Below the pieces are notes generated by a model. The model did no database searches and was not told the DNA's origin. It was given only the letters and a program-made list of their open reading frames with translations. Below, one piece after another: positions 10,005 through 23,789 of a DNA stretch of 57,158 nt (position 1 is the first letter of the stretch; every line of letters starts with the position of its first letter). Where the stretch lies: NCBI GenBank assembly GCA_002694745.1, contig NZMY01000041.1, positions 1-57,158 of the forward strand, in the 5' to 3' direction. A program made the translations under genes and the position numbers. The DNA is from Croceicoccus sp. GTDB taxonomy: Bacteria > Pseudomonadota > Alphaproteobacteria > Sphingomonadales > Sphingomonadaceae.

Positions 10005-10436
10005 TTGGCGCTGCTCGCCATCGCCCTCATGGCATTCGCGCTCCTTATCGCGCCATTTCCGGCCGCGGCCCAGCAGTCCCCCGGCGAAGCGTGGCCCGAT
10101 GCGCCCACTTTCAGCGAAACCGGCCCGCTGACCAGCGATACCGGGCAAGTCACTTTCGAGTGGCAGGCGTTCGAACCGACACGCCTTACGATCACCGGCG
10201 ACAATGGCCGTTCCCGCCCGATCTATCGCGGCAAGGGTGACAGGCTGTTCGTTTCCGGCCTTGCCGACGGGGATTACCGCGCCGAACTGGTGGGCGAGGA
10301 CAGCGGCACGGGCGACACCATCATGGTCGAGGTGCGGCACCAGTCGCTGACCCGCGCCTTGCTGCTGACCCTGCTGGGCGGGGTCGTGTTCCTGATGGTG
10401 CTGGCGATCATCCTGCGCGGTGCGCGCCGTGGCTGA
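10005..10436 (+). CDS. Membrane-anchored periplasmic protein, first gene of the transcarbamylase operon
   Basis: About 143 residues; function not recognised. The N terminus is a strongly hydrophobic signal peptide ending near PFPAAAQQ. About 85 residues of polar, beta-rich sequence follow (TGQVTFEWQAFEPTRLTI), then a C-terminal membrane helix (about 115-137) and a basic RGARRG end. This suggests a periplasmic beta-sandwich domain anchored in the inner membrane. The start is doubtful: TTG at 10005 is the best in-frame candidate, but an upstream non-ATG start would add two arginines before the hydrophobic stretch, as signal peptides usually have. It overlaps the start of the SSS symporter gene, which argues for shared expression and perhaps partnership. 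Confidence 0.65.
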   Translation: MALLAIALMAFALLIAPFPAAAQQSPGEAWPDAPTFSETGPLTSDTGQVTFEWQAFEPTRLTITGDNGRSRPIYRGKGDRLFVSGLADGDYRAELVGEDSGTGDTIMVEVRHQSLTRALLLTLLGGVVFLMVLAIILRGARRG

Positions 10437-11853
10437 ACGCACGATCTTCCTCGACCCCACGCTGGGCTGGATCCTGCTGGCGGGGTTCAGCGTGCTGTGG
10501 GTCGGGCTGGGCATCTATTGGGGCCGCCGCAACAAGAGCTTCGAGGATCATGCGCTGGCAGGCCGCAATGTCGGGCTGGCGCTGGGATCGGCGACGGCGG
10601 CGGCGACGTGGATCACGTCGAACACAACGATGCTGGCTCCGCAATTCGCGCTGGAGCTGGGGGTGTGGGGCATGATCGCCTATTCCACCGCCTCGCTGGG
10701 ATTGATGCTGTTCGCGCCGCTGGCGGTGCGGATCCGCACGCTGATGCCGCATGGCTATACCAGCGGCGATTTCTTCCGCCTGCGATATGGCCGCGCGACC
10801 TGGGCGGTGTTCCTGATCTTCACCCTGTTCTATTCGCTGACATGGCTGGTCAGCATGGCGATGGCGGGCGGCATCTTGCTGGAGGCGCTGGCCGGGATCG
10901 ATTATGTCTGGGGGATGACGGTCATCCTCGGCGTCTGCGTGCTTTATACGATGCGCGGCGGGCTGGGGGCGGTGATCGGCACCGATTTCATCCAGACGCT
11001 GATCATCATCATTGGCATCGTCATCACCGGATTCGCGGTGCTCAGCCAGGTGTCCGTCGGCGAGATCCACGCCGAACTGTCCGCGAACAAGCCCGCGCTG
11101 CTCGACGTATTGTTCCCCGCCGCGATCATGGCGATCTTCAACAATCTGCTGTTCGGCCTGGGCGAGGTGTTTCACAACAACGTCTGGTGGAGCCGCGCCT
11201 TTGCGTTCCGCGAAGGCGTGGGCGGCAAGGCGTTCTTCATCGGCGGGCTGGTGTGGTTGCCGATCCCCGTTGCGGCTGGCTTCATCGCGCTCGCCTCGGG
11301 CGCGCTGGGCGTCGCGGTGCCCAGCGCGGACATGGTCGGACCGCTGGTGATCGCGCAGGTGCTGGGCACGGCGGGGGCTATCGGCATTTTCATCATCGTG
11401 TTCTGCTCGCTCGCCTCCAGCATCGACAGCCTGCTCGCCGCCACCAGCGATCTGGTGACCGAGGATATCTGGCGCCGCCTGCTGCGCCCCGATGCCTCGC
11501 CCGCGGCGCTGAAATCGGCGGCGCAGTGGATCACGCTGGCGCTGGGGCTGCTGACATGGGCGCTATGCGCGCCGCGCATCGGGACGCTGGCCAGCGTGCT
11601 GTTTTTCGCCGGGCCGCTGGTCGGGGCGATGATCTTTCCGATCATCACCGGCCTCTATTGGTGCAGCGCCAGTACGGCGGGCGCGCTGGGCGCGATGCTG
11701 CTGGGCGCGGGCGCGGGGCTGATATGCTATTTCACCATCGGCTGGTTCGTCGCGACGACCATCGCGACCGCGGTGTCCATGGTCTGGATGCTGGCGGCCT
11801 GCGCGCTGAACCGGAACCGGTTCGACTGGGCGCGGTTGAAGGAGGACTCATGA
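10429..11853 (+). CDS. Sodium:solute symporter (SSS family)
   Basis: About 474 residues with 12-13 hydrophobic helices, a LeuT-fold secondary transporter of the inner membrane. SSS hallmarks include the early ALAGRNVGLALGSATAAATW segment, YTSGDFFRLRYG and the long GGLGAVIGTDFIQTLIIIIG stretch. General architecture and the HNNVWWSRAFAFR loop remind me of the DUR3-type urea branch, but I cannot confirm the substrate. GTG at 10429 is preferred; a GTG at 10420 would add three residues. It overlaps the previous gene, and its stop overlaps the next start by four bases (ATGA). Context suggests transport of a nitrogen-rich solute linked to the transcarbamylase and amidotransferase downstream. Confidence 0.85.
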   Translation: MAERTIFLDPTLGWILLAGFSVLWVGLGIYWGRRNKSFEDHALAGRNVGLALGSATAAATWITSNTTMLAPQFALELGVWGMIAYSTASLGLMLFAPLAVRIRTLMPHGYTSGDFFRLRYGRATWAVFLIFTLFYSLTWLVSMAMAGGILLEALAGIDYVWGMTVILGVCVLYTMRGGLGAVIGTDFIQTLIIIIGIVITGFAVLSQVSVGEIHAELSANKPALLDVLFPAAIMAIFNNLLFGLGEVFHNNVWWSRAFAFREGVGGKAFFIGGLVWLPIPVAAGFIALASGALGVAVPSADMVGPLVIAQVLGTAGAIGIFIIVFCSLASSIDSLLAATSDLVTEDIWRRLLRPDASPAALKSAAQWITLALGLLTWALCAPRIGTLASVLFFAGPLVGAMIFPIITGLYWCSASTAGALGAMLLGAGAGLICYFTIGWFVATTIATAVSMVWMLAACALNRNRFDWARLKEDS

Positions 11854-11972
11854 GCTTTTCTGCAGGTTTCCTCGAATTCGCGGTCTGGACCGCGCTGATC
11901 TGGTGCGCGATCTCCGCGCTTGCGCTGGGCGCGATGCTGCTGCGCGATGCGAAATCGGGGTCGATCTGGTGA
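11850..11972 (+). CDS. 40-residue single-helix membrane peptide between symporter and transcarbamylase
   Basis: 40 residues: short polar start, one hydrophobic helix (about 8-31), then a polar RDAKSGSIW end. The start has GGAGG 5 bp upstream and an ATGA overlap with the symporter stop. Its TGA overlaps the GTG of the transcarbamylase (GTGA). Both junctions being translational-coupling overlaps is good evidence that this is a real gene. Some SSS transporters have a small membrane partner encoded next door, so it may be a symporter subunit; that role is inference. Confidence 0.7.
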   Translation: MSFSAGFLEFAVWTALIWCAISALALGAMLLRDAKSGSIW

Positions 11973-13066
11973 ACGACATTCAATCCGCCAGCCAGCTGGA
12001 CCACCGCGCCGATCCGCAGCGCAAGGCGGGGGTGCTGGGCAATCGCCCCGATCCCCATGACCTGCTCGCCATGTCGCCAAAGCTCGACCTCGACGTGCTC
12101 GACCGGCTGCACAATTGCTCGATCCTGTCGGCGGCGCAGTTCGATCTGCCGCTGATGCAGGAATTGTCCAAGCTGGCCGCCTATCTTCAGCTGCGCAAGT
12201 TTCCGGCGGGCCATGCGCTGGACGACAAGATCATGGCCGCGGCCTTCTTCGAACCGTCCACCCGCACGCGGCTCTCGTTCGAAAGCGCGATGCTCCACGT
12301 CGGCGGCAAGACGCTGAGCGTGGCCGACGCCAAGACCACCGGCGTCGCCAAGGGCGAATCGATGCGCGACATCGGGCAGATGTTCAACAGCTACGCCGAT
12401 GTCGTGGTGGTGCGGCATACGCAGCAGCAGGCCTTGCAGCAGCTGACCGAATATATGCGCATCCCGCTGATCAATGGCGGCAACGGGTCGGACGAACATC
12501 CGACGCAGGCGCTGGCCGACTGGTACGCGCTGATGAAATGGCGGCCCGAGCTGGCGTTCGGCACCTTGCCCGAACAGTTCCGCCTGACCATCGGCATCAT
12601 CGGCACGCCGGGCAATATGCGCACGGTGAAGAGCTTCCTTACGCTGGCGCTGCTGTTCCACAAGAACATCAACCATATCACGATCTTCTCGGAAATGGCG
12701 GACCCGCTGGGTGCGGAACTGCGCGCGCTGACCAATGCCAGCCCGATCACTTTCGATTTCAGCCGCAATCTGAAGCAGAGCCTCGAATATCTCGACGTCA
12801 TCTACATGAACGCCATCGCGTTTTTGGGCGACGGCTACCGCTTCTTCGGCGACGAGTTTTCGCTGTCCTCGCAAAGCCAGCTGAAGACCGACACGGTCAT
12901 CCTGCACCCGCTGGCGCGCGGGGAAGAGCTGGGCACCTGCCTCGATGACACCGACCATAATCTCTATTTCAACCAGGCGGATGGCGCGGTCTGGCTGCGG
13001 CAGGCGCTGCTGCTCGCCATTTTCGGGCGGGTGCGCAACATCGTGCCCCGCGAACTCATCAAGTAA
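11969..13066 (+). CDS. ATCase/OTCase-superfamily carbamoyltransferase of altered specificity
   Basis: 365 residues, about 50 longer than an aspartate transcarbamylase catalytic chain because of an N-terminal extension. Should transfer a carbamoyl group from carbamoyl phosphate to an amine. The carbamoyl-phosphate site is intact: STRTR (97-101), Arg149 in RHTQ, HPTQ (177-180), and the neighbour-subunit loop Lys128. Arg218 (NMRTVKS) matches E. coli PyrB Arg167, which binds the substrate alpha-carboxylate. The aspartate side-chain residues are missing: PyrB Arg229 and Gln231 align with Ala282 and Ala284 (YMNAIA), and HPLPR has become HPLAR (313-317). So it is probably not a pyrimidine-pathway ATCase but acts on another amino acid. 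GTG start in a GTGA overlap; an AsnB-type gene follows 12 bp later. Confidence 0.88.
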   Translation: MNDIQSASQLDHRADPQRKAGVLGNRPDPHDLLAMSPKLDLDVLDRLHNCSILSAAQFDLPLMQELSKLAAYLQLRKFPAGHALDDKIMAAAFFEPSTRTRLSFESAMLHVGGKTLSVADAKTTGVAKGESMRDIGQMFNSYADVVVVRHTQQQALQQLTEYMRIPLINGGNGSDEHPTQALADWYALMKWRPELAFGTLPEQFRLTIGIIGTPGNMRTVKSFLTLALLFHKNINHITIFSEMADPLGAELRALTNASPITFDFSRNLKQSLEYLDVIYMNAIAFLGDGYRFFGDEFSLSSQSQLKTDTVILHPLARGEELGTCLDDTDHNLYFNQADGAVWLRQALLLAIFGRVRNIVPRELIK

Positions 13067-13078
13067 AGGAACGCCCCG

Positions 13079-15016
13079 ATGTGCGGAATTGCCGGGCTAT
13101 GGGCCCGCTCCCATCACCCCGAAACCGTTATCCGTGCCGAGAAGATGGCCGACGCGCTGTATCACCGCGGGCCCGACGGGCGCGGCTTTCATATCGATGC
13201 GCGCAATGCGCTGGCGATGATCCATACGCGGCTGTCGATCATCGGGCTGAACGCAGGCGACCAGCCGATCTTCGGCCGCGAGAGCGACGGCACCGGTGGT
13301 ATGGTGCTGACCGCGAACGGCGAGTTCTACGACTACAAGCGTATTCGTGGCCTGCTGCGCACCGATGGCTATGACTTCAACACCAAGTCGGACAGCGAGC
13401 TGGCGATCAAGCTTTACCACAAGCATGGCCTTGATTTCGTGCACCATTTGCGCGGCGAATTCGCCTTCGCCATCTTTGACGAGGCGAAGCAGCAGCTGAT
13501 CCTTGTGCGCGACAGGTTCGGCATTCGCCCGCTGTTTTGCCATGTGGGTGAGGCGGGCGTGTTCTGGGGCAGCGAGATCAAGGCGATGCTGGCGCATCCC
13601 GATGTTCCGCGCGAACTCGATCCGCGCGCGCAATTGCACCAGATGATGCAGGTGATGGTCCCCGGCATGACGCTGTGGAAGGGGATCGAGGCGGTGAAGC
13701 CCGGCCACATGCTGATCGTCAGCCGCGACGGCGACGGCTTCGCGGTGGAAGAGCGCCGCTATTGGGACGCCGACTTCCCGCTCGACGGTGAGCATGACGA
13801 ACTTCCCGACGAGGAGCATATCGAGAATGTCCGCAAGGCGCTGGTCGAATCCATCGCCCTGCGGCTGGAGGCGGACGTTCCGGTCGCCTGCTACCTGTCC
13901 GGCGGCATCGACAGCTGCTCGATCCTCGGCATGGCGGCGGCGATCCAGCAATCTCCCGTCAAGGCCTTCACCATTGGCTTCGACGATGCGCGCTATGACG
14001 AAACCTCGATCGCCACCGAAATGGCCGAGATGGTCGGCGCGGACCAAGACATATTGCGGGTGTCCGCCGCCGATCTCTACGGCCAGAATTTCGAGGATGC
14101 GGTCTATTATTCCGAGCGCACTTTCTACAACACGCTGGGCGTCGCCAAGATGCTGATGTCAAAGCACGTGACCGAAAACGGCTACAAGGTGGTGATCACG
14201 GGCGAGGGCAGCGACGAGCTGTTTGGCGGCTATGCCCAGTTCAAGGCCGATTATTTCCTCCACGACCCCGCCTATGCGACAAGCGCCGCCGGGGCCGAGA
14301 TGAAGGAGCGCAACAAGATCTTCTCGGGCAGCGTGCTGGCCGAGGAGACGATCAGCCATCCCGCGTTCGAGGAGGTGATGGGTTTCACCCCCAGCTGGAT
14401 CCAGCCATGGATGCTGGTCTACGAACGGGTGAAGCCGCTGCTGTCGGACGAATTCGTGGCGAAGCTGGACGGCTATGACCCGGTCGCGGCTATCGCCTAC
14501 TCGCTCGACAAGTCGATGCTCGACGGGCGGCATGTGCTGGATAAGGTGCAATACAGCTGGATCAAGACCATGCTGGAGGGCCAGATCCTCAACTGGGGCG
14601 GCGACCGCGTCGACATGGCCAACAGCCTGGAATCGCGCCCCGCCTTCCTCGACCATCATGTCGCCGAACTGGCCATGCGCATCCCGCCATCGGTCCGCAT
14701 CCGCGACGGGATCGAGAAATGGGTGGTGCGCGAGGCGATGAAGCATGTGCTGCCCGAAGTGCTCTACAAGCGCGAGAAATTCGCCTTCATGGCCCCGCCC
14801 GCGCATACCAGCGACGAGAAGGGGCGCGAGATCGACCTGCTGCTGGACAAATGGCTGTCGTCGGACAAGATCGCCGAGCACGGCATCTTCGACGAGGAAA
14901 AGCTGCGCGCCAGCATCGCCGAATACAAGCAGTCCGACGATCACACCGCGAACACGCGCAAGGACATCATCCTCAACCACGCGATTGCGCTCCACGCGAT
15001 CGAGGAACTGATCTGA
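13079..15016 (+). CDS. Glutamine-dependent AsnB-type amidotransferase
   Basis: 645 residues, longer than E. coli AsnB (about 554). The N-terminal class-II glutaminase domain begins MCGIAGLW with catalytic Cys2 (after Met removal), then YHRGPDGRG and ANGEFYDY. The synthetase domain has the ATP-pyrophosphatase loop SGGIDS at 274-279 and GEGSDELFGGY near 376-386. Such enzymes activate a carboxylate with ATP and amidate it with ammonia from glutamine. Family members include asparagine synthetases and special amidotransferases such as the one in N-acetylglutaminylglutamine amide synthesis. It sits 12 bp after the atypical transcarbamylase and 7 bp before an Nramp-related gene, so a specialised role is more likely than plain asparagine supply; the substrate itself is inferred. 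Confidence 0.9.
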   Translation: MCGIAGLWARSHHPETVIRAEKMADALYHRGPDGRGFHIDARNALAMIHTRLSIIGLNAGDQPIFGRESDGTGGMVLTANGEFYDYKRIRGLLRTDGYDFNTKSDSELAIKLYHKHGLDFVHHLRGEFAFAIFDEAKQQLILVRDRFGIRPLFCHVGEAGVFWGSEIKAMLAHPDVPRELDPRAQLHQMMQVMVPGMTLWKGIEAVKPGHMLIVSRDGDGFAVEERRYWDADFPLDGEHDELPDEEHIENVRKALVESIALRLEADVPVACYLSGGIDSCSILGMAAAIQQSPVKAFTIGFDDARYDETSIATEMAEMVGADQDILRVSAADLYGQNFEDAVYYSERTFYNTLGVAKMLMSKHVTENGYKVVITGEGSDELFGGYAQFKADYFLHDPAYATSAAGAEMKERNKIFSGSVLAEETISHPAFEEVMGFTPSWIQPWMLVYERVKPLLSDEFVAKLDGYDPVAAIAYSLDKSMLDGRHVLDKVQYSWIKTMLEGQILNWGGDRVDMANSLESRPAFLDHHVAELAMRIPPSVRIRDGIEKWVVREAMKHVLPEVLYKREKFAFMAPPAHTSDEKGREIDLLLDKWLSSDKIAEHGIFDEEKLRASIAEYKQSDDHTANTRKDIILNHAIALHAIEELI

Positions 15017-15023
15017 TCGCCGC

Positions 15024-16262
15024 ATGAGCGAGCAGCCGTCGGGAAGCCTCTGGCGCCACATCGGCCCCGGCATCGTCGTGGCCGCCACCGGCGTGGGTGC
15101 GGGCGATCTGGTTGCGACGCTGATCGCGGGTTCGCGCTTCGGCTATGCGCTGTTGTGGGCGGCGATATTGGGCTGCATCGTCAAGAACGCGCTGTCCGAA
15201 GGGTCGGCGCGCTATCACCTTGCGACCGGATCGACGATCCTGGCGGGCTGGCAATCCTTGGGCCGTTGGACCGGCTGGTATTTCGGCATTTACGTCGTGG
15301 TCTGGGGCTTCATCTATGGCGCCACCGCGATGAGCGCGACCGCGCTGCCGTTGGCGGCGCTATTCCCGGCGATTCCGCTGACCGGCTGGGCGATCCTGAC
15401 GGGTCTGGCCGGTTTCGCCTTCGTTTTCTTCAACCGGTACGAGCGGCTTGAAGTGCTGGTGAAGCTGCTGGTCGGGCTGATGTTCGTCATCATCGTCGGG
15501 CTCGCGATACTGGCCGCGCCCGATTTCCCGCAGGTGCTGGCGGGCCTTGCCTTTTCACTGCCCGACAATTCGCTGTTCTATACGCTGGGGCTGATCGGCG
15601 GGGTGGGCGGCACGGTGACGACCGCCGCCTATGGATATTGGGCGCAGGCCAAGGGCTGGAACGGCACCGGCTGGCTGCCGCTGATGCGGATCGACAATGC
15701 GCTGGCCTATGTGCTGACCGGCATTTTCGTCGTCGCCATGATGATCGTCGGCGCGGAGCTGCTGTTTGCCGCCAGCATCGCGCTGCAGAGCGGGGACCGC
15801 GGCCTGCTGGACCTGTCCAACGTGCTCGAGGCGCGCTTTGGACGCTTCATTGCCGCCGCTTTCCTCGTCGGCTTCGCGGCCACCGCCTTTTCATCGGTGC
15901 TGGGCGTGTGGCACGGGATGAGCCTGTTCTTTGCCGACTGGTACGTGCAGTTCTTCGACCGGCCCCTGCCCGAAGGCCCGCCCGAACGCAGCGCGCCGTT
16001 TCGCGCCTATGCCGCGTGGCTGACCTTTCCGCCGATGCTGCTGCTCTATGCGCAGCAGCCGTTCCTGCTGGCGGTGATCTATGGCGCGTTCGGCGCGCTG
16101 TTCATGCCGTTTCTGGCGGTCACTCTGCTATGGCTGCTGAACCGCCGTGACTTTCCGGCCGAGGCGCGCAATGGCTGGCTGTCGAACCTGACGCTGGCAG
16201 GTTCGGCGCTGCTTTTCGCCGTGCTGGCGGGGCAGCAATTGTGGAGCCTGTTCGCGGCCTGA
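15024..16262 (+). CDS. Nramp-related LeuT-fold transporter lacking the canonical metal motifs
   Basis: 412 residues, about 11 hydrophobic helices, inner membrane. Overall layout matches the Nramp (COG1914) family: GPGIVVAATGVGAGDL at the first helix and GLIGGVGGTVTTAAYGYW at the sixth. The metal-binding signatures are altered: the helix-1 DPGN motif reads GAGD (25-28), and the helix-6 MPH motif reads TAA. Without these side chains, Mn/Fe transport as in MntH is doubtful. It lies 7 bp after the AsnB-type gene as last member of the operon and is followed by a clear terminator. It may move an organic solute or a different ion. Confidence 0.8.
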   Translation: MSEQPSGSLWRHIGPGIVVAATGVGAGDLVATLIAGSRFGYALLWAAILGCIVKNALSEGSARYHLATGSTILAGWQSLGRWTGWYFGIYVVVWGFIYGATAMSATALPLAALFPAIPLTGWAILTGLAGFAFVFFNRYERLEVLVKLLVGLMFVIIVGLAILAAPDFPQVLAGLAFSLPDNSLFYTLGLIGGVGGTVTTAAYGYWAQAKGWNGTGWLPLMRIDNALAYVLTGIFVVAMMIVGAELLFAASIALQSGDRGLLDLSNVLEARFGRFIAAAFLVGFAATAFSSVLGVWHGMSLFFADWYVQFFDRPLPEGPPERSAPFRAYAAWLTFPPMLLLYAQQPFLLAVIYGAFGALFMPFLAVTLLWLLNRRDFPAEARNGWLSNLTLAGSALLFAVLAGQQLWSLFAA

Positions 16263-16268
16263 AAAGCG

Positions 16269-16304
16269 AAAGGGGCGAACGCTCGTGAAAGCGCCCGCCC
16301 CTTT
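16269..16304. terminator. Bidirectional terminator between the operon and the adhesin gene
   Basis: A 9-bp stem AAAGGGGCG (16269-16277) / CGCCCCTTT (16296-16304), followed on the plus strand by CTTTG. The stem itself has A and T tracts on both sides, so it can serve the plus-strand transporter operon (stop 16262) and the minus-strand adhesin gene (stop 16323). Confidence 0.75.
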
Positions 16305-16322
16305 CTTTGCACTTGGTAAGTA

Positions 16323-17364
16323 TCAGAAACCCAGCGCGACGCCCACGCGTCCGCCGGTCGAGTTCTTCGCGGTCGACCCCGCAATGCCCCCCGAGACATA
16401 GATGCGCGGCGCGACCCGTGCGGCGACCGAGCCGGCAAAGCCCTGCTCGCCGCGATAGGTCGAGACATTGCCCGAGACCGAGATCGTGCTGTCAGGCACG
16501 ATCATCTGGCCGCCCAGCGCCATCGCCGAGGCAATGCCGCCGCGCGTGCTTTCGTCGAGGTCGTCAAGCTGGAAGCCCAGCGTGTCGACATCGGCCTGCA
16601 GCGCCGCGAACTGCGCATCGGACACCGCCGCCACCGCCTGCATCTGGGTGGCGAGCGAGGCCACCTGCTGGCCGGTCGCCAGCGCGCTGCCCTTGCCCAA
16701 CGTGCCTTCGTTGTCGACGGTCACGGAGTAGAGCTGCCCTTCCTGCGCAGCCGTCGAGGCATCGATATCGCCGACCCGCACCGACGACCCGGTGCCGCCC
16801 AGCGTGACCTGGTTCACATCGGTCGTCGTCGCCTGATAGCCGACAGCGGTCGAGTTGTTGAACGCGGCCACGGCGGAGGTGCCCACGGCGACAGCAGCCG
16901 ATCCGCTGGCGACGGCCTGGGTGCCCATGGCGACAGCGCGGCCGCCGCTGGCGGTCGCTTCATAACCGAACGCGCCCGACAGGATGCCCGATGCGTTGGC
17001 AGCCCGGCCAAAGGCGGCAGCATCGCGGCCCGCGGCGCTGGCGAAATTGCCGACTGCGGTGGAGCGCAAGCCCGCCGACTGCGCGCGGAAGCCGATGGCA
17101 TTACTGAACCCGCCGCCGGCATTCGCCTCGGTCCCCATAGCCGTCGCCGATTCGGCGGTGGCCCCGGCATTGGTGCCGATGGCGATGGAGTTGGTCCCGG
17201 ACGCGTCGGCGCCCAGGCGGGAGCCGTCGTTCAGATTCCCGTCGCTGCCAAAGGCGATGCCGTTGACGCCCGATGCGCGCGCGTAAGCGCCGATGGCGCT
17301 GCCGCCTTGCGCCGACACGGTTGCGACCTTGCCGATGGCGGTGCCGAATGCGGCGCTGACGCGC
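16323..17364 (-). pseudogene. YadA-type trimeric autotransporter adhesin, 3' part (split by an IS)
   Basis: C-terminal part of a trimeric autotransporter. It contains several YadA-head repeats (SNAIGFRAQSAGLRSTAVGN, GRAVAMGTQAVASGSAAVAV, NSTAVGYQATTTD), a stalk, and a C-terminal membrane anchor of about 70 residues ending GRVGVALGF, with the terminal Phe expected for BAM-dependent insertion. The reading frame runs to the insertion junction; from there the only ATG lies inside the IS terminal repeat and gives no signal peptide. The 5' part is at 20602-21042. Joining the halves with one copy of the 10-bp duplication gives an uninterrupted frame across RVS. So this is a recently split gene rather than an old decayed one. 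Confidence 0.85.
17355..17364. repeat. Target-site duplication, left copy
   Basis: GCTGACGCGC directly next to the left end of the IS; identical to 20602-20611. IS1595 elements usually make 8-bp duplications, so two of the ten matching bases may be chance or the element may differ. Confidence 0.85.
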
Positions 17365-17388
17365 GGCATTATGTAGCAAACGCACCAA
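17365..17388. repeat. Left terminal inverted repeat of the IS
   Basis: 24 bp beginning GGCATTATGTAGCAAACG, the exact reverse complement of 20578-20601. Confidence 0.9.
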
Positions 17389-18346: not shown

Positions 18347-19300
18347 TCAGCGCTGCCAGTATCCCGACCACTGGCGGCTCTGACGCGCTTCCATAGCCGA
18401 ACCAGCCACCATCATAGCCTGCGAACCGTTGCACTGGCGGCGGTTGTTCTCACGCCATGCAGCTTCACCTGCATAGGCATAGAGATACGGCCCAGCGATA
18501 TGGTGATGGGTGCCGACTTCCATCCGGCGAAGGCGCGAGAAGTAGCTTTCAGCCTGATTGGTGCAGGCACCCTCAGCCGAATATGCCAGCGAGTGATTGA
18601 TGCGCCATGCCTGCCAGCCAGCGTGAAGCGCATCCCAGCTTGAAGCCTCGTCAGCGTGAATCACGGCAAGGTTGTCAACGTGGTCGCGCACATAGGGCAC
18701 TGCATCGCCTTCCTGGCGCACCACGAAGGGCAGCGCACGACCGCCACGCTCGCGCATGATGACAACGCACTGCCGCTTGCCAGTCTGGTTTACGGCAAGG
18801 CGGCGATCCTTGCGATCTTCCTTGCGATTGGCAGGGCGAACGTGACCGCCAAAATAAGCCCCGTCCATTTCGACCGTGCCTTCAAGCTTGGTGTCGGCCA
18901 GCTCGCGGGCCATCGCTTCGCGCAGCTTGTGAAACAGCACGAAGGCGGTCTTATACTGAACGTCCAGATCGCGGCTCGCCTGCAGAGCGCTGATGCCCTT
19001 GGCACCGTTCACGAAGATCACGATAGCAGCCAGCAGATCGGTGAACGACAGCTTGCGCGAAGCGAAGATCGTGCCGCTGGTGACGCTGAACTGGTGATGG
19101 CAGGCAACGCACTTGAACTTGCGACGGGTGGCGATGTTGTAAGTCTCGACACAGCCACAACGTGGGCAAACGGCTTCGCCTTCCGTCTCAGGCCACCGAA
19201 GATGGCAGAAGGTCTGATAGGCCGCATCTTCGCCCATGCGAAAAACCGCCTTCAAAGAGAGGCTGCGGGCTTTTGCGGAGAGGAGAAAGTGTTGTGCCAT
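18347..19300 (-). CDS. IS1595-family (ISXO2-like) transposase
   Basis: 317 residues, complete. The N-terminal part has a zinc ribbon (CPRCGC ... CVACHHQF), then the DDE-like catalytic region with TVEMDGAYFGGHVRP, IHADEASSWDAL, and NQAESYFSRLRRMEVG (Asp, Asp, Asn/Glu type residues) typical of this family. It cuts and joins the inverted repeats at 17365-17388 and 20578-20601. A Shine-Dalgarno-like GGAAA lies 7 bp before the ATG. A promoter with TTGACA at 19351-19356 (minus strand) and an AT-rich -10 around 19327-19333 fits this gene. It looks intact, so the element may still be mobile. Confidence 0.92.
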   Translation of the reverse strand: MAQHFLLSAKARSLSLKAVFRMGEDAAYQTFCHLRWPETEGEAVCPRCGCVETYNIATRRKFKCVACHHQFSVTSGTIFASRKLSFTDLLAAIVIFVNGAKGISALQASRDLDVQYKTAFVLFHKLREAMARELADTKLEGTVEMDGAYFGGHVRPANRKEDRKDRRLAVNQTGKRQCVVIMRERGGRALPFVVRQEGDAVPYVRDHVDNLAVIHADEASSWDALHAGWQAWRINHSLAYSAEGACTNQAESYFSRLRRMEVGTHHHIAGPYLYAYAGEAAWRENNRRQCNGSQAMMVAGSAMEARQSRQWSGYWQR

Positions 19301-20577: not shown

Positions 20578-20601
20578 TTGGTGCGTTTGCTACATAATGC
20601 C
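20578..20601. repeat. Right terminal inverted repeat of the IS
   Basis: 24 bp ending GCTACATAATGCC, exact reverse complement of 17365-17388. Confidence 0.9.
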
Positions 20602-20611
20602 GCTGACGCGC
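20602..20611. repeat. Target-site duplication, right copy
   Basis: GCTGACGCGC directly after the right end of the IS; identical to 17355-17364. Confidence 0.85.
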
Positions 20612-21042
20612 GAATCCGCGCCAACCGCAGTGCTGAAATCGGCGAAACCGTAAGTCGTATTGCCGCCGGCGGTGCCATCGACGGTTCCAACGCGGGCATC
20701 ATTGCCAAGGGCGATCGTATCGAAGCCCACGGCAACAGCGCGGGCACCGAACGCCACGGCACCGTCGGTGAAACCGGTCGGCACGACGGCTGACGTCAGA
20801 TTGGCCTTCGCCTGATAGCCTACGGCGGTGCTGTTGGGACTGTTGGCAGAAGCTTCGGTTCCGCAAGCGGTGGCAGTGGCGCCATTGCTTGTCGCACCCT
20901 GCGTGCTTTGCGTCGCGGAGCCCGAATCTTCCATCACGCATTCCTCCGCCATGGCGGATTGCGGCGCGGTCATCGCGACGAATGCTGCAAACGCGGTGCC
21001 TGTCAGCATGCCGGTCCGGCGAGCACGATCGAATTGTCTCAT
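20602..21042 (-). pseudogene. YadA-type trimeric autotransporter adhesin, 5' part (split by an IS)
   Basis: N-terminal part of the adhesin whose 3' part is at 16323-17364. It has a signal peptide (arginine-rich start, then GTAFAAFVAMTAPQSAMA) and head repeats such as NSTAVGYQAKANLT, GARAVAVGFDTIALG and FADFSTAVGADSR. Reading runs into the IS and stops after three foreign residues (GIM). The ATG at 21042 is preferred because AAGGGAA lies 7 bp upstream; an in-frame ATG at 21066 would add eight residues. The intact protein would have been about 490 residues and surface-exposed. The truncated product has no membrane anchor and cannot be displayed. Confidence 0.82.
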
Positions 21043-21237
21043 ACGAATTTCCCTTCGCTTGGCCATGGGGGCGAGGGGATAAATCGAAATTAACCGAGTT
21101 CGATAAGTAAAACCTTGAAAATACCTGCCCCCGGGAGACCTTTCATCCCCCTGCGAGACAGATGTGGCAAGGCCATCAACCCTTTCGAGATATGATTTCT
21201 CTAATTTGCTGCCACCATTGCGACAAATCGTGCGCGA

Positions 21238-22545
21238 TCAGCGGGAAACCGATTGTTCCAAAGGGTTAACGCGCTCCGGCGCGCAGGCTAGTTCCATGAC
21301 GCAGTTGCACAACAGCTGCACGCCGCGTTCGACATCGGTCCAGTGAGTCCATTCGTCGGGGGCATGGCTGATGCCGCCCACGCTGGGCACGAAGATCAGG
21401 CCGGTGCGGGTCAGAGCGGTGAAGAACTGCACGTCATGCCCCGCGCCCGACGGCATCACCTTGTAGCTGTAGTCCAGCGCTTTCGCGTTGCGTTCGATCG
21501 TCGCGACGATCCCTTCGTCGCAATAGGCGGGGGCAAGCCAGCTCATCTGTTCGTAATCGAACTTCAGACCGTGGCGGCGCGAGATCGATTCCAGCACCTT
21601 GCGGCAGCTGTCGGCCAGCCGCTTCATCACCTCTTCGTCGAGATCGCGGCCCACGATGGTAAAGTCCGCCTCGCCGGGCACGGTATGCGGGAATCCGGGT
21701 TTCAGCGCGACATGGCCGATGGTGATCCGGCTCTTGTCGGTGCCTTCCTCGTCGATGATGCGCGGGATTTCATGCGCGAAATCGACCATGCCCATCAGCG
21801 CGTCGGACCGCAGGTGCATCGGCGCGGTGCCCGCATGGTCGGGCTTGCCCTTCAGCTTGACCATCCATTTGAACACGCCCGAAATCCCCTCGACCACGCC
21901 GATGGTGGTGTTTTCGGTGTCGAGCACCGGACCCTGCTCGACATGAAGTTCCAGAAAGGCGTGCAGCGTTTCGGGCCGGCGATAGGCGTGGAGCGCCTGC
22001 AGATAATCCAGCCCCGCGTCCGCCATCGCGTCCTTCAGCGCCAGCCCATGCTCGTCCGCCGCGCCTTCCAGCCATTCGCGGGTCAGGTTTCCGGTCATCG
22101 CCTGCGCGCCGAGCATGCCGCCGAAACGGCCTTCCTCCTCGCTGGTGGCGATAACCTCGATCGGGTAGTTCGGCTTGACGCCCGCGTCCTTCATGGTGCG
22201 GATCACTTCCAGACCAGCGACCACGCCCAGCACCCCGTCGAATATGCCGCCCGCAGGGACCGAATCGAGATGCGAGGCGATGACGATGGCAGGCTTGTCG
22301 GCGCCCGCGCCATCCGGGTCGTAACGCCCGATCACATTGCCCGCCCCGTCCATGCGGTGATCGAGCCCCAGTTCGCCCATGCGGCCTCGCAGCCACTGCC
22401 GCGCGGCCATGTCCTCGGGCGAGAAGCCCTGGCGATAGACACCGCGGTCCTCCTCGTTGAAACCGAAGCGCGCGATGGCGTTGATGTCGCCCTCCACCCG
22501 GCCGATGTCGATGCGGGGCTGGTTCATGCCGTCGCGCGTGGTCAT
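21238..22545 (-). CDS. M20-family Zn-dependent amidase (hydantoinase/carbamoylase type)
   Basis: 435 residues. Metal-dependent hydrolase of the N-carbamoyl-L-amino-acid amidohydrolase / allantoate amidohydrolase group. Visible motifs are ASHLDSVPAGGIFDGVLGVV (metal ligands His and Asp), EEEGRFGGMLGAQAM, ELHVEQGPVLD, PDHAGTAPMHLRSDA of the dimerisation domain and PSGAGHDVQFF near the C terminus. It removes carbamoyl groups or related ureido groups in the cytosol. ATG at 22545 overlaps the stop of the upstream M20 gene (ATGA), so the two are coupled. Its presence about 5 kb from an atypical transcarbamylase operon may be meaningful, though the IS and adhesin lie between. Confidence 0.86.
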   Translation of the reverse strand: MTTRDGMNQPRIDIGRVEGDINAIARFGFNEEDRGVYRQGFSPEDMAARQWLRGRMGELGLDHRMDGAGNVIGRYDPDGAGADKPAIVIASHLDSVPAGGIFDGVLGVVAGLEVIRTMKDAGVKPNYPIEVIATSEEEGRFGGMLGAQAMTGNLTREWLEGAADEHGLALKDAMADAGLDYLQALHAYRRPETLHAFLELHVEQGPVLDTENTTIGVVEGISGVFKWMVKLKGKPDHAGTAPMHLRSDALMGMVDFAHEIPRIIDEEGTDKSRITIGHVALKPGFPHTVPGEADFTIVGRDLDEEVMKRLADSCRKVLESISRRHGLKFDYEQMSWLAPAYCDEGIVATIERNAKALDYSYKVMPSGAGHDVQFFTALTRTGLIFVPSVGGISHAPDEWTHWTDVERGVQLLCNCVMELACAPERVNPLEQSVSR

Positions 22546-23789
22546 GCGGGCAAACCTTTCTGCAAGACCGCCAGCCCCAGCGCCGCCAGCAGGGCGGCCC
22601 CTCGCGGCAGGGCAGTCTCGTCCATATGCATGCGCGGCGAATGCAGGCCGCAGCACTGCGACCAGTCGTCGCCTTCGCGCGCGACGCCCAGGAACAGCAT
22701 CGCGCCGGGCGCATGGTTCAACACATAGCTGAAATCCTCCGCCGTCATCAGCGGGCGTTTCAGCGTCTCGAAGCTGTCCGCGCCAAATTCGCGAACCGCA
22801 ACCTCGCGGGCGAGGGCGAAGGCGCGCGGATCGTTCACGGTGACGGGAAAGCCCGGTTTCACCGTGACCTCCGCGCTCAGCCCATGGGCGGCAGCGATGT
22901 TGGTGGCCAGCCGTTCGATCGCTTGCGGCAGGCGGGCGCGGGTCTCGTCCGAGAGGGTTCGCAGCGTGCCGCGCATGGTGCAGGCATCGGCGATGACATT
23001 GTCGGCATGCCCTGCCTCGATCCTCGTGACGGTGACGACCACCGGCTCGCCCGCATCGAACTGGCGCGTGACCATCGCCTGCAGCGCGGTCACGATCTCT
23101 GCCGCGACGGGCATGGGATCGGCCGCGCCGTGGGGCATGGAGGCATGGCCGCCCGAACCCTTGACCACCACCTGCAGAGTGTCCGAAGCCGCCATCAGCG
23201 GGCCGGGGATGCAGGCGATCTGGCCGTGCCGGGCATTGGGCATGACATGGAGGGCGAAACAGGCGTCGGGCGGGCCATGTTCGTCGGTCAGCAGGCCGTC
23301 CTCGACCATCATGCGCCCGCCGCCAAAGCCTTCCTCGCCCGGCTGGAACATCAGCCAGACCTCGCCATCGAAATCGCCGCTGCGTTCGGCGAGCAGCTTT
23401 GCCGCGCCGACCAGCATGGCGGTGTGCCCGTCATGGCCGCAGGCATGCATCCGGCCCGTGATCTGCGACGCAAAGGGAAGGCCGGTTTCCTCGGCCAAAG
23501 GCAGCGCGTCCATATCGCCGCGCAGCACCACGCGGCGCCTTTTGCCGGTGGCGGGACCACGGCCTTTCAGCACGGCGACCGCGCCGGTGGTCTGCGGGCC
23601 TTCGCGCCATTCCAGCGGCAAATCCGCCAGCGCGTCCTTCACCTTGGCCAGCGTACGCGGCGTTTCCAGCCCCAGTTCGGGATCGGCATGGATCGCGCGG
23701 CGCAGCGCCGCGATCTCGTCGCCCAGCGCCTCGGCCGCCTCTGCAATCGAGGAGCCGATGTCGCCGGGCGGAGTCGCGTGAAGGTTCAT
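22542..23789 (-). CDS. M20D-family amidohydrolase (hippurate / amino-acid amide type)
   Basis: 415 residues. Cytosolic metallo-aminoacylase of the HipO/IAA-amino-acid hydrolase group that splits N-acyl or amide bonds. Motifs are LRGDMDALPL, HACGHDGHTAML (metal site), FQPGEEGFGG, ALHVMPN and SGGHASMPH, with MTAEDFSYVL and FLGV near the end. ATG at 23789 (MNLHATPPG) is chosen; a TTG 36 bases upstream is less likely. It is coupled to the carbamoylase gene by a four-base overlap and follows the DUF2141 gene after about 50 bp. Confidence 0.87.
   Translation of the reverse strand: MNLHATPPGDIGSSIAEAAEALGDEIAALRRAIHADPELGLETPRTLAKVKDALADLPLEWREGPQTTGAVAVLKGRGPATGKRRRVVLRGDMDALPLAEETGLPFASQITGRMHACGHDGHTAMLVGAAKLLAERSGDFDGEVWLMFQPGEEGFGGGRMMVEDGLLTDEHGPPDACFALHVMPNARHGQIACIPGPLMAASDTLQVVVKGSGGHASMPHGAADPMPVAAEIVTALQAMVTRQFDAGEPVVVTVTRIEAGHADNVIADACTMRGTLRTLSDETRARLPQAIERLATNIAAAHGLSAEVTVKPGFPVTVNDPRAFALAREVAVREFGADSFETLKRPLMTAEDFSYVLNHAPGAMLFLGVAREGDDWSQCCGLHSPRMHMDETALPRGAALLAALGLAVLQKGLPA

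Follow-up and report, generated by a model that had tools for sequence, protein, structure and literature searches.

By gene content, the conserved core of a cluster in Croceicoccus sp. is a third transcarbamylase (TC) encoded beside an AsnB-type glutamine-dependent amidotransferase. The two enzymes likely make N-alpha-carbamoyl-L-glutamine 1-amide (CGA), a compatible solute known since 1991, as a salt protectant, with associated hydrolases recycling the product. We assign this explanation as a whole a probability of roughly 0.7. The sequence evidence consists of gene content, co-occurrence across genomes, active-site residues and the presence of the cluster in the type strain of a reported CGA-accumulating species. 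The window, by which we mean the entire analyzed stretch of 57,158 nucleotides, was originally predicted to encode successive carbamoylation and amidation steps. This two-step reading is supported by residues, co-occurrence and the cluster of strain DSM 4180, with L-glutamine as the proposed acceptor. The original prediction also knew of no genes assigned to CGA synthesis, and we likewise found no assignment in the open-access literature, with subscription papers mostly outside the scope of the search.

The operon in the window comprises six closely spaced open reading frames, all on the forward strand (10005..16262; Table 1). The expectation of a tight operon with a common terminator held, as neighboring genes overlap by 17 or 4 bp or are separated by at most 12 bp, and a terminator-like hairpin lies 3' of the last gene. 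The hairpin z-score stems from 200 shuffles, one of which folded equally well. A simple consensus terminator scan of the window did not list the hairpin, probably because the structured loop is long. A consensus promoter scan gave no useful signal, with 4 sites found versus 3.6 expected. Chance does not explain the arrangement, since distant bacteria share this order of genes. Pfam searches matched SSF, OTCace_N/OTCace, Asn_synthase with GATase, and Nramp, in agreement with the earlier family calls, and neither Pfam nor NCBIfam matched P1 or the 40-residue peptide. The TC start was placed at GTG 11969, since the homologue alignment extends upstream of ATG 12071. Judging from neighborhoods in other genomes, the conserved unit extends past 10005..16262 and includes an M20 carbamoylase gene.

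Table 1. Predicted features of the window (positions counted from its first nucleotide).
Feature	Position	Strand	Characteristics
P1, small anchored protein	10005..10436	+	signal peptide, beta-sandwich, C-terminal membrane helix
P2, SSS/SSF sodium:solute symporter	10420..11853	+	PF00474, 81.7 bits; 17-bp overlap with P1
P3, 40-residue membrane peptide	11850..11972	+	4-bp overlap with SSS gene
TC, third transcarbamylase	11969..13066	+	PF02729/PF00185; GTG start; 4-bp overlap with P3
AsnB-type glutamine-dependent amidotransferase	13079..15016	+	PF00733/PF13537; 12-bp gap after TC
Nramp-family transporter	15024..16262	+	PF01566; 7-bp gap after AsnB
Terminator-like hairpin	16268..16305	+	-25.5 kcal/mol, z -4.2, then CTTTCTTT
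M20 N-carbamoyl-L-amino-acid hydrolase	ORF 21238..22656, homology 21289-22518	-	TIGR01879; 86% identity to Croceicoccus mobilis M20

On profile scores and residues, the TC is a third transcarbamylase set apart from PyrB and ArgF. It falls short of the NCBIfam cut-offs for aspartate carbamoyltransferase TIGR00670 (166.4 bits, cut-off 236.95), NF002032 (163.3 bits, cut-off 263) and the ornithine equivalog TIGR00658 (89.8 bits, cut-off 280.85). Each of the 12 cluster genomes examined encodes exactly two additional transcarbamylases. The fold and the carbamoyl-phosphate site are shared with PyrB, and the AF2 model (mean pLDDT 91) has the CAD ATCase 5g1n as top Foldseek match. Equivalents of S52, T53, R54, T55, K84, R105, H134 and Q137 (E. 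coli numbering), which form the carbamoyl-phosphate site, are kept in 108/108 aligned TC rows, though the first four are true by construction in the 21 rows chosen by the STRTR motif. The R167 equivalent is also retained in all 108 rows. Unlike PyrB, the TC has lost the equivalent of Arg229, which we take to bind the aspartate beta-carboxylate in ATCase. The residue is found in 5/5 PyrB rows and in 0/108 TC rows, which carry Ala (72), Ser (33) or Thr (3) instead. HPLAR occurs in every TC row, whereas PyrB rows contain HPLPR (2) or another motif (3). The motif D-x-W...SMG, assumed here to be that of ornithine carbamoyltransferases, has Asn in its first column in 108/108 TC rows versus Asp in 8/8 OTC rows. 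One pair of the 108 rows is identical. Loci that could not be parsed (7 of 20 for paralogues, 1 of 5 for degenerate copies) were dropped, and the Gln231 column was left out due to unreliable alignment. Nothing on the roles of Arg229 or Gln231 was retrieved from the open-access literature. The cut-offs, the loss of Arg229 and the extra paralogues rule out PyrB or ArgF, and the anticipated departure from aspartate specificity is borne out at the sequence level by Arg229 loss and the paralogues. We propose that the TC is an L-glutamine N-alpha-carbamoyltransferase.

A TC tree was built from 59 rows, thinned manually from 125, with a quick method that carried a long-branch warning; it contains two subclades. 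The window TC falls in subclade I and the DSM 4180 TC in subclade II. The two enzymes share only 44-47% identity, and their acceptors may differ. TC relatives without AsnB occur in four gammaproteobacterial genomes, and a fifth genome carries one in addition to an intact pair. They appear degenerate: in the four of five that were aligned, substitutions affect several carbamoyl-phosphate residues that are invariant elsewhere. One of these four (L173) is cut by a contig end and misses the first four positions, and the fifth relative (L174) was judged by eye. The degenerate rows branch beside subclade II (support 87).

The AsnB-type enzyme passes TIGR01536 (403.8 bits, cut-off 267.1). Cys2 (after Met), the PP-loop SGG(I/V)DS and the catalytic Glu are present in 83/83 rows, and the Lys of REKF in 81/81 ungapped rows. 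Synthesis of N-acetylglutaminylglutamine amide (NAGGN) likewise relies on AsnB-type amidation of an alpha-carboxylate to give an uncharged glutamine-derived osmolyte. The N-cap proposed here is a carbamoyl group added by a transcarbamylase, whereas NAGGN carries an acetyl group. The window enzyme is ruled out as a NAGGN synthase, reaching 291.6 bits against the TIGR03104 cut-off of 570.1. We propose an N-carbamoyl-glutamine alpha-amide synthetase.

The predicted co-occurrence of the two genes was upheld. In the window's order, the 14 of 396 genomes that have TC are also the 14 that have AsnB. Among gammaproteobacteria, TC is present in 27 of 369 genomes, which include all 23 genomes with AsnB. 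AsnB lies within 93 of 95 TC-bearing loci (four of the 95 are duplicates), and in the remaining two the TC sits at or near a contig end. The AsnB gene directly adjoins TC on the same strand in 89 of the 93 loci, and an M20 gene together with an isochorismatase-type gene is placed between them in the other 4. Every one of the 69 loci with full flanks contains AsnB. Partner counts are based on 89 loci, which exclude duplicates (L022-L025), pieces of the split G092 (L034/L035) and paralogue loci (L036/L037) and still contain near-identical pairs from sister strains.

Transport functions recur around the core. Of 69 full-flank loci, 64 encode the SSS symporter; the five that lack it are from Ectothiorhodospira. 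In all 64 symporter-bearing full-flank loci, a short hydrophobic ORF (30-40 residues as called) whose last residue is W lies between the symporter and TC genes. Some SSS symporters pair with small one- or two-helix partners, and here too a membrane peptide is encoded right after the symporter. The cluster differs in the length of about 40 residues, the terminal Trp and the additional anchored FnIII-like protein. The single-helix peptide P3 is probably a small symporter subunit. P1, with homologues in 54/69 full-flank loci, is probably an accessory subunit of the symporter. Its AF2 model (mean pLDDT 89), in which strands precede a helix at 115-142, suggests one membrane-anchored Ig/FnIII-like beta-sandwich. 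Foldseek matches of P1 include FnIII and Ig domains, yet these are generic and all TM-scores shown are <0.5 by query length. The Nramp gene is restricted to 2/89 loci, the window and Croceicoccus mobilis, which rules it out as a core member, contrary to the original prediction. By this distribution, the transporter is a lineage-specific addition outside the conserved unit. The other five members of the initial gene set recur. That set did not include the M20 carbamoylase or the isochorismatase-type enzyme encoded in other hosts.

The M20 protein of the window is 86% identical to the M20 encoded downstream of the C. mobilis cluster. It passes TIGR01879 (353.3 bits, cut-off 204) and NF006771 (493.1 bits, cut-off 399), as expected of the M20 hydantoinase-carbamoylase family, and its closest solved structure by sequence is an N-carbamoyl-L-amino acid hydrolase (3n5f). 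It differs from that family in being tied to a biosynthetic pair and in scoring 362.1 bits for the ErtE N-carbamyl-L-glutamate hydrolase, below the cut-off of 520. M20 genes occur in 51/69 full-flank loci and are missing nearby in 18. We propose this L-carbamoylase family member as a recycling enzyme. The isochorismatase-type (amidase-like) gene is not found near 52/69 full-flank loci. The window's side of the tree is without it, since every tree locus having the enzyme belongs to subclade II.

The link to CGA comes from Ectothiorhodospira. In E. mobilis DSM 4180, TC, AsnB, M20 and the isochorismatase-type gene are clustered together, and all 10 genomes examined from the genus of this strain contain TC. 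The accessible text of PMC7824335 lists DSM 4180T as E. marismortui, and that of PMC1224877 reports CGA accumulation by E. marismortui, for which it gives E. mobilis as another name. Taking the CGA report at species level, the cluster is thus present in the type strain of a species reported in these texts to accumulate the solute. The proposed chemistry on glutamine would give exactly this compound. In 2013, CGA was regarded as a minor solute known from a single organism, and E. marismortui extracts gave no CGA-attributable Raman signal, the compound being absent from the spectral library (PMC3857566).

Habitats and neighboring genes are partly consistent with a role in salt protection. Among the best 80 of 530 relatives, most named hosts are marine or halophilic judged by name, in line with the expected link to salt. 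The link is incomplete, as N. endophyticum, N. mathurense, C. bisphenolivorans and C. estronivorus are not marine by name. TC is rare inside mixed genera, with 2/61 genomes in that of N. aestuarii and 8/119 in that of N. mathurense. Betaine- or sucrose-synthesis genes border nine loci. A glycine/sarcosine methyltransferase homologue follows AsnB in L073, L085, L088 and L104, and a sucrose synthase homologue flanks five Ectothiorhodospira clusters. The first operon gene at L089, L100, L107 and L112 is of PII type (Pfam check for L089).

We infer substrate, step order and physiology from the sequences as follows. The TC would use carbamoyl phosphate to carbamoylate L-glutamine at its alpha-amine, giving N-carbamoyl-glutamine. 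The AsnB-type enzyme would then activate the alpha-carboxylate with ATP and convert it to the amide, a second glutamine supplying the ammonia. The product would be CGA, in which carbamoylation and amidation would mask both charges. The symporter, the 40-residue peptide and the anchored FnIII-like protein might retrieve leaked solute or a precursor. The symporter is likely dispensable for synthesis because the five Ectothiorhodospira loci examined are without it. When salt drops, glutamine could be recovered by the M20 L-carbamoylase together with an amidase, for which the isochorismatase-type enzyme is the candidate where present.

The same two steps might act on another amino acid, such as asparagine, glutamate or a non-proteinogenic one, or subclades I and II might make different amides. 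We consider this unlikely, yet it is the most serious alternative, given that Arg229 loss with Arg167 retention does not specify a side chain, that the window and DSM 4180 enzymes are so divergent, and that the window M20 stays below the ErtE cut-off. Against it, the one natural product known to us from such chemistry is the glutamine compound, in the type strain's own species. Both subclades also have the same partners (AsnB, symporter, peptide, M20) and agree in their substituted residues. A catabolic module could also account for the frequent symporter and M20 L-carbamoylase partners. The symporter would import N-carbamoyl amino acids or hydantoin products, the M20 enzyme would hydrolyze them, and a reversed TC would yield carbamoyl phosphate and ATP. 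Such a module is improbable, as the ATP- and glutamine-consuming AsnB is the invariant partner in full-flank loci, in contrast to M20 and symporter, and no carbamate kinase was seen by eye in 15 neighborhoods.

A specialized ureido-amide, serving as signal or antibiotic rather than osmolyte, would fit the known use of AsnB-type enzymes in such pathways and the hydroxyamidotransferase 7ylz as nearest solved relative of AsnB by phmmer. However, no NRPS/PKS or tailoring genes were seen by eye in 15 loci, and several loci are flanked by genes for other compatible solutes, which makes this very improbable. We see even less room for an extra PyrB and an extra AsnB without special product. Homology of TC to ATCase and the TIGR01536 match of AsnB agree with duplicated pyrimidine and asparagine enzymes, but the two other transcarbamylases per genome, the lost Arg229 equivalent, the TC scores under ATCase equivalog cut-offs and the frequent pairing with M20 and symporter do not.

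The CGA reading supplies candidate genes for a long-known solute and defines a transcarbamylase clade with an altered acceptor site. It also yields a prediction that can be tested in many marine bacteria. We lean towards the view that CGA is widespread in the sea as a compatible solute and that two dedicated enzymes, a transcarbamylase of new specificity and an AsnB-type alpha-amide synthetase, produce it in Alpha-, Beta- and Gammaproteobacteria, Planctomycetota, Spirochaetota and Myxococcota. Such a pathway would explain how Pseudidiomarina and similar groups tolerate salt. Twelve Idiomarinaceae loci with TC, AsnB and symporter are among the best 80 of 530 relatives. The Idiomarina ATCH4 genome has the cluster (L106), and the accessible text of its genome paper attributes salt tolerance to other genes. 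For Pseudidiomarina strains, the accessible text of PMC10893183 describes osmoadaptation as not deducible from the genome, with no ectoine or glycine-betaine synthesis. If CGA is indeed the product, the Idiomarinaceae cluster would bear on this gap, with the match at family level. Ectothiorhodospira magna, described in the accessible text of PMC7824335 as without biosynthetic capabilities and relying on betaine and ectoine uptake, also has the cluster (L110).

The two enzyme genes at the center of the operon, the transcarbamylase gene (TC) and the AsnB-type amidotransferase gene (AsnB), occur together across distant genomes, as the original prediction had proposed to check. Among 396 genomes of the window's order, TC (E<=1e-45) and AsnB (E<=1e-130) were detected in an identical set of 14 genomes. 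At E<=1e-20, TC was found in 17 of the 396 genomes, with the best matches of the three extra genomes at ~1e-21 to 1e-22. Among 369 genomes of the class of Ectothiorhodospira mobilis DSM 4180 (gammaproteobacteria), TC (E<=1e-50) was found in 27 and AsnB (E<=1e-130) in 23, all 23 falling within the 27. The four TC-only genomes contain relatives of 36-45% identity. The aligned degenerate relatives stem from three of these genomes and from a second copy in a fifth genome, and they carry substitutions at several carbamoyl-phosphate residues that do not vary otherwise; the relative in the fourth TC-only genome looks degenerate by eye. Degenerate relatives (L171-L175; L173 is truncated by a contig end) have no adjacent AsnB and are possible pseudo-enzymes or regulators. 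The genome G654 carries an intact TC/AsnB pair together with a degenerate TC copy. TC and AsnB distances are correlated over 83 loci (r=0.957; as high in 0 of 999 permutations), which common species history alone can also explain.

The two genes are embedded in a larger conserved unit. The order of a small anchored protein (P1), an SSS symporter, TC and AsnB is repeated in 12 genomes of the window's order, which were found by TC. Searches by tblastn reported no P1 in two and no 40-residue ORF in eight of the 12 genomes, and a directed search recovered a similar short ORF in all eight. A scan of genome contigs confirmed 530 relatives, of which the best 80 were retained. Neighborhoods were counted over 89 loci, after leaving out four duplicates and four partial or paralogue loci, and 69 of these have at least 6 kb on each side of TC. 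These full-flank loci contain AsnB in 69, the symporter in 64, P1 in 54, an N-carbamoyl-L-amino-acid hydrolase gene (M20) in 51, a MarR-type gene in 22 and an isochorismatase-type gene in 17 cases, the latter every time with M20. The five loci lacking the symporter are all from Ectothiorhodospira. A hydrophobic ORF of 30-40 residues with a C-terminal Trp lies between symporter and TC in 64 of 64 symporter-bearing full-flank loci (raw count). The single-helix peptide of ~40 residues is shared by the window and 63 other loci, Trp always being last; Pfam and NCBIfam searches with the window copy gave no match. Four spirochaete-labelled loci (L089, L100, L107, L112) show the order TC, M20, isochorismatase-type gene, AsnB, so that both hydrolases sit between the core genes. 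A PII-type (GlnB-like) paralogue is the first operon gene in these four loci (Pfam-tested in L089).

In the window itself, all six predicted ORFs are present, and family assignments agree with the predicted families. Adjacent ORFs overlap by 4-17 bp or stand 7-12 bp apart. A terminator-like hairpin follows the last gene. GTG 11969 is the most likely start codon of TC, to judge from homologues aligning to residues upstream of ATG 12071, and with this start TC overlaps the end of the 40-residue ORF by four bases. The six-gene observation was right overall, but it wrongly included the Nramp transporter gene, which is found in two of the 69 full-flank loci, and overlooked the hydrolases. The window M20 gene lies ~5 kb beyond the Nramp gene. 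Between them are two pieces that resemble parts of one trimeric-autotransporter-type gene, with a transposase-bearing stretch separating the pieces, and this would explain the distance. Croceicoccus mobilis (L039) has the gene as one uninterrupted ORF. A second M20-type amidohydrolase adjoins the M20 carbamoylase in C. mobilis and possibly substitutes for the absent amidase. The window belongs to a genome of 4.02 Mb. Its TC is 91% identical to the C. mobilis TC and 96% identical to the TC of a Croceicoccus MAG, which places the source in Croceicoccus or close to it.

Coordinates of features in the window and in related loci
Feature	Locus	Position	Strand	Remark
40-residue ORF	window	11850-11972		
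TC	window	11969-13066	+	
AsnB	window	13079-15016	+	
Hairpin	window	16268-16305		
Autotransporter-type piece	window	16323-17369	-	matched to L039 by clustering
IS1595-like transposase ORF	window	18347-19300		by eye; between the two pieces
Autotransporter-type piece	window	20590-21066	-	matched to L039 by eye
Autotransporter-type ORF	L039	13666-15231		
Second M20-type amidohydrolase	L039	16705-17970	-	by eye
PII-type gene	L089	6485-6859		
PII-type gene	L100	6004-6417		
PII-type gene	L107	6124-6483		
PII-type gene	L112	6288-6617		

TC is an atypical transcarbamylase, as predicted. Exactly three transcarbamylases (E<=1e-10) are encoded in each of 12 cluster genomes. The other two in the window genome adjoin ORFs resembling dihydroorotase and Hsp33 (by eye), as expected for PyrB and ArgF. 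The AF2 model of TC (mean pLDDT 91.1) has the ATCase fold (TM ~0.8 by query length). TC reaches neither the ATCase nor the OTCase equivalog cut-off. Residue numbers and roles are those of E. coli ATCase. None of the 108 aligned TC rows shows a change at the carbamoyl-phosphate residues, at K84 or at R167; the rows are not independent (21 were chosen by the STRTR motif and one pair is identical). The R229 column holds Ala, Ser or Thr in all 108 rows and Arg in five of five PyrB rows, and the P268 column is Ala throughout TC. This pattern fits an alpha-amino acid acceptor without a beta-carboxylate. TC groups with its degenerate relatives in a single clade (SH-aLRT 100) that has two parts. Subclade I (98) includes the window, Nitrosomonas, Scalindua, myxobacteria and the spirochaete-labelled L073, and subclade II (92, or 87 including degenerate rows) includes Ectothiorhodospira, other gammas and other alphas. 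AsnB exceeds the Asn-synthase model cut-off and fails the PEP-CTERM and NAGGN amidotransferase models, and thereby differs from the enzyme of NAGGN synthesis. All 83 AsnB rows retain the Cys that follows Met1, as well as the PP-loop and the Glu of GEG; NGE is complete in 80 of 83 rows, and the REKF Lys is kept in 81 of 81 ungapped rows. Going by its family, AsnB should transfer ammonia from glutamine to an adenylated carboxylate.

Several clusters adjoin genes of osmolyte metabolism. A glycine/sarcosine methyltransferase gene and a sarcosine/dimethylglycine methyltransferase homologue lie 3' of AsnB in L073, L085, L088 and L104, which span both TC subclades. The former exceeds the NF051855 cut-off in both loci tested (L085 and L073), and the latter, with scores of 389.1 and 320.5, does not reach its cut-off of 550. 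A sucrose synthase homologue lies beside five Ectothiorhodospira clusters (TIGR02470, 1182 bits in L087, the sole one tested). Hosts named among the best 80 of 530 relatives include Croceicoccus, marine Novosphingobium, Nitrosomonas marina and aestuarii, Scalindua, Idiomarina, Aliidiomarina, Pseudidiomarina, Enhygromyxa salina and Ectothiorhodospira; N. endophyticum, N. mathurense, C. bisphenolivorans and C. estronivorus are non-marine by name. Within two genera the unit is patchily distributed: it occurs in 2 of the 61 genomes from the genus to which Nitrosomonas aestuarii belongs, and in 8 of the 119 from the genus of Novosphingobium mathurense. One cluster (L067, M20 read as two pieces) is in a MAG labelled Oscillatoriales cyanobacterium, which may be a binning error.

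A passage of PMC3857566 describes N-alpha-carbamoyl-L-glutamine 1-amide (CGA) as a minor solute that had been found in a single organism; Raman did not reveal it there, the compound being absent from that study's spectral library. We found no genes assigned to CGA in the titles, abstracts and passages of the open-access literature, which leaves most subscription papers outside coverage, and likewise none in such literature on Idiomarina solutes. The osmoadaptation strategy of Pseudidiomarina strains was described as not deducible from the genome (passage of PMC10893183). Salt tolerance of Idiomarina ATCH4 was ascribed to betaine, proline, glutamate, glutamine, transport and potassium genes (passage of PMC12279604), in a text that lacks the word "carbamoyl". 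The ATCH4 genome carries the cluster (L106). According to passages on the reported producer, E. marismortui, alias E. mobilis, accumulates CGA (PMC1224877) and is listed as DSM 4180T (PMC7824335). E. mobilis DSM 4180 is a TC-bearing genome, and TC is present in 10 of 10 genomes examined of its genus. The DSM 4180 locus (L087) contains, in this order, sucrose synthase (-), MarR, M20, the isochorismatase-type gene, TC, AsnB and a sugar-kinase-like gene (-, by eye). CGA synthesis from glutamine would require one N-carbamoylation and one alpha-amidation, both of which the TC/AsnB pair could supply. Breakdown would require an amidase and an L-carbamoylase, roles that the isochorismatase-type enzyme and M20 could fill. 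Independent comparative evidence and the DSM 4180 link support the predicted N-carbamoyl amino-acid amide pathway, in which transcarbamylation and AsnB-type amidation would yield CGA or a relative, with glutamine as the predicted substrate.
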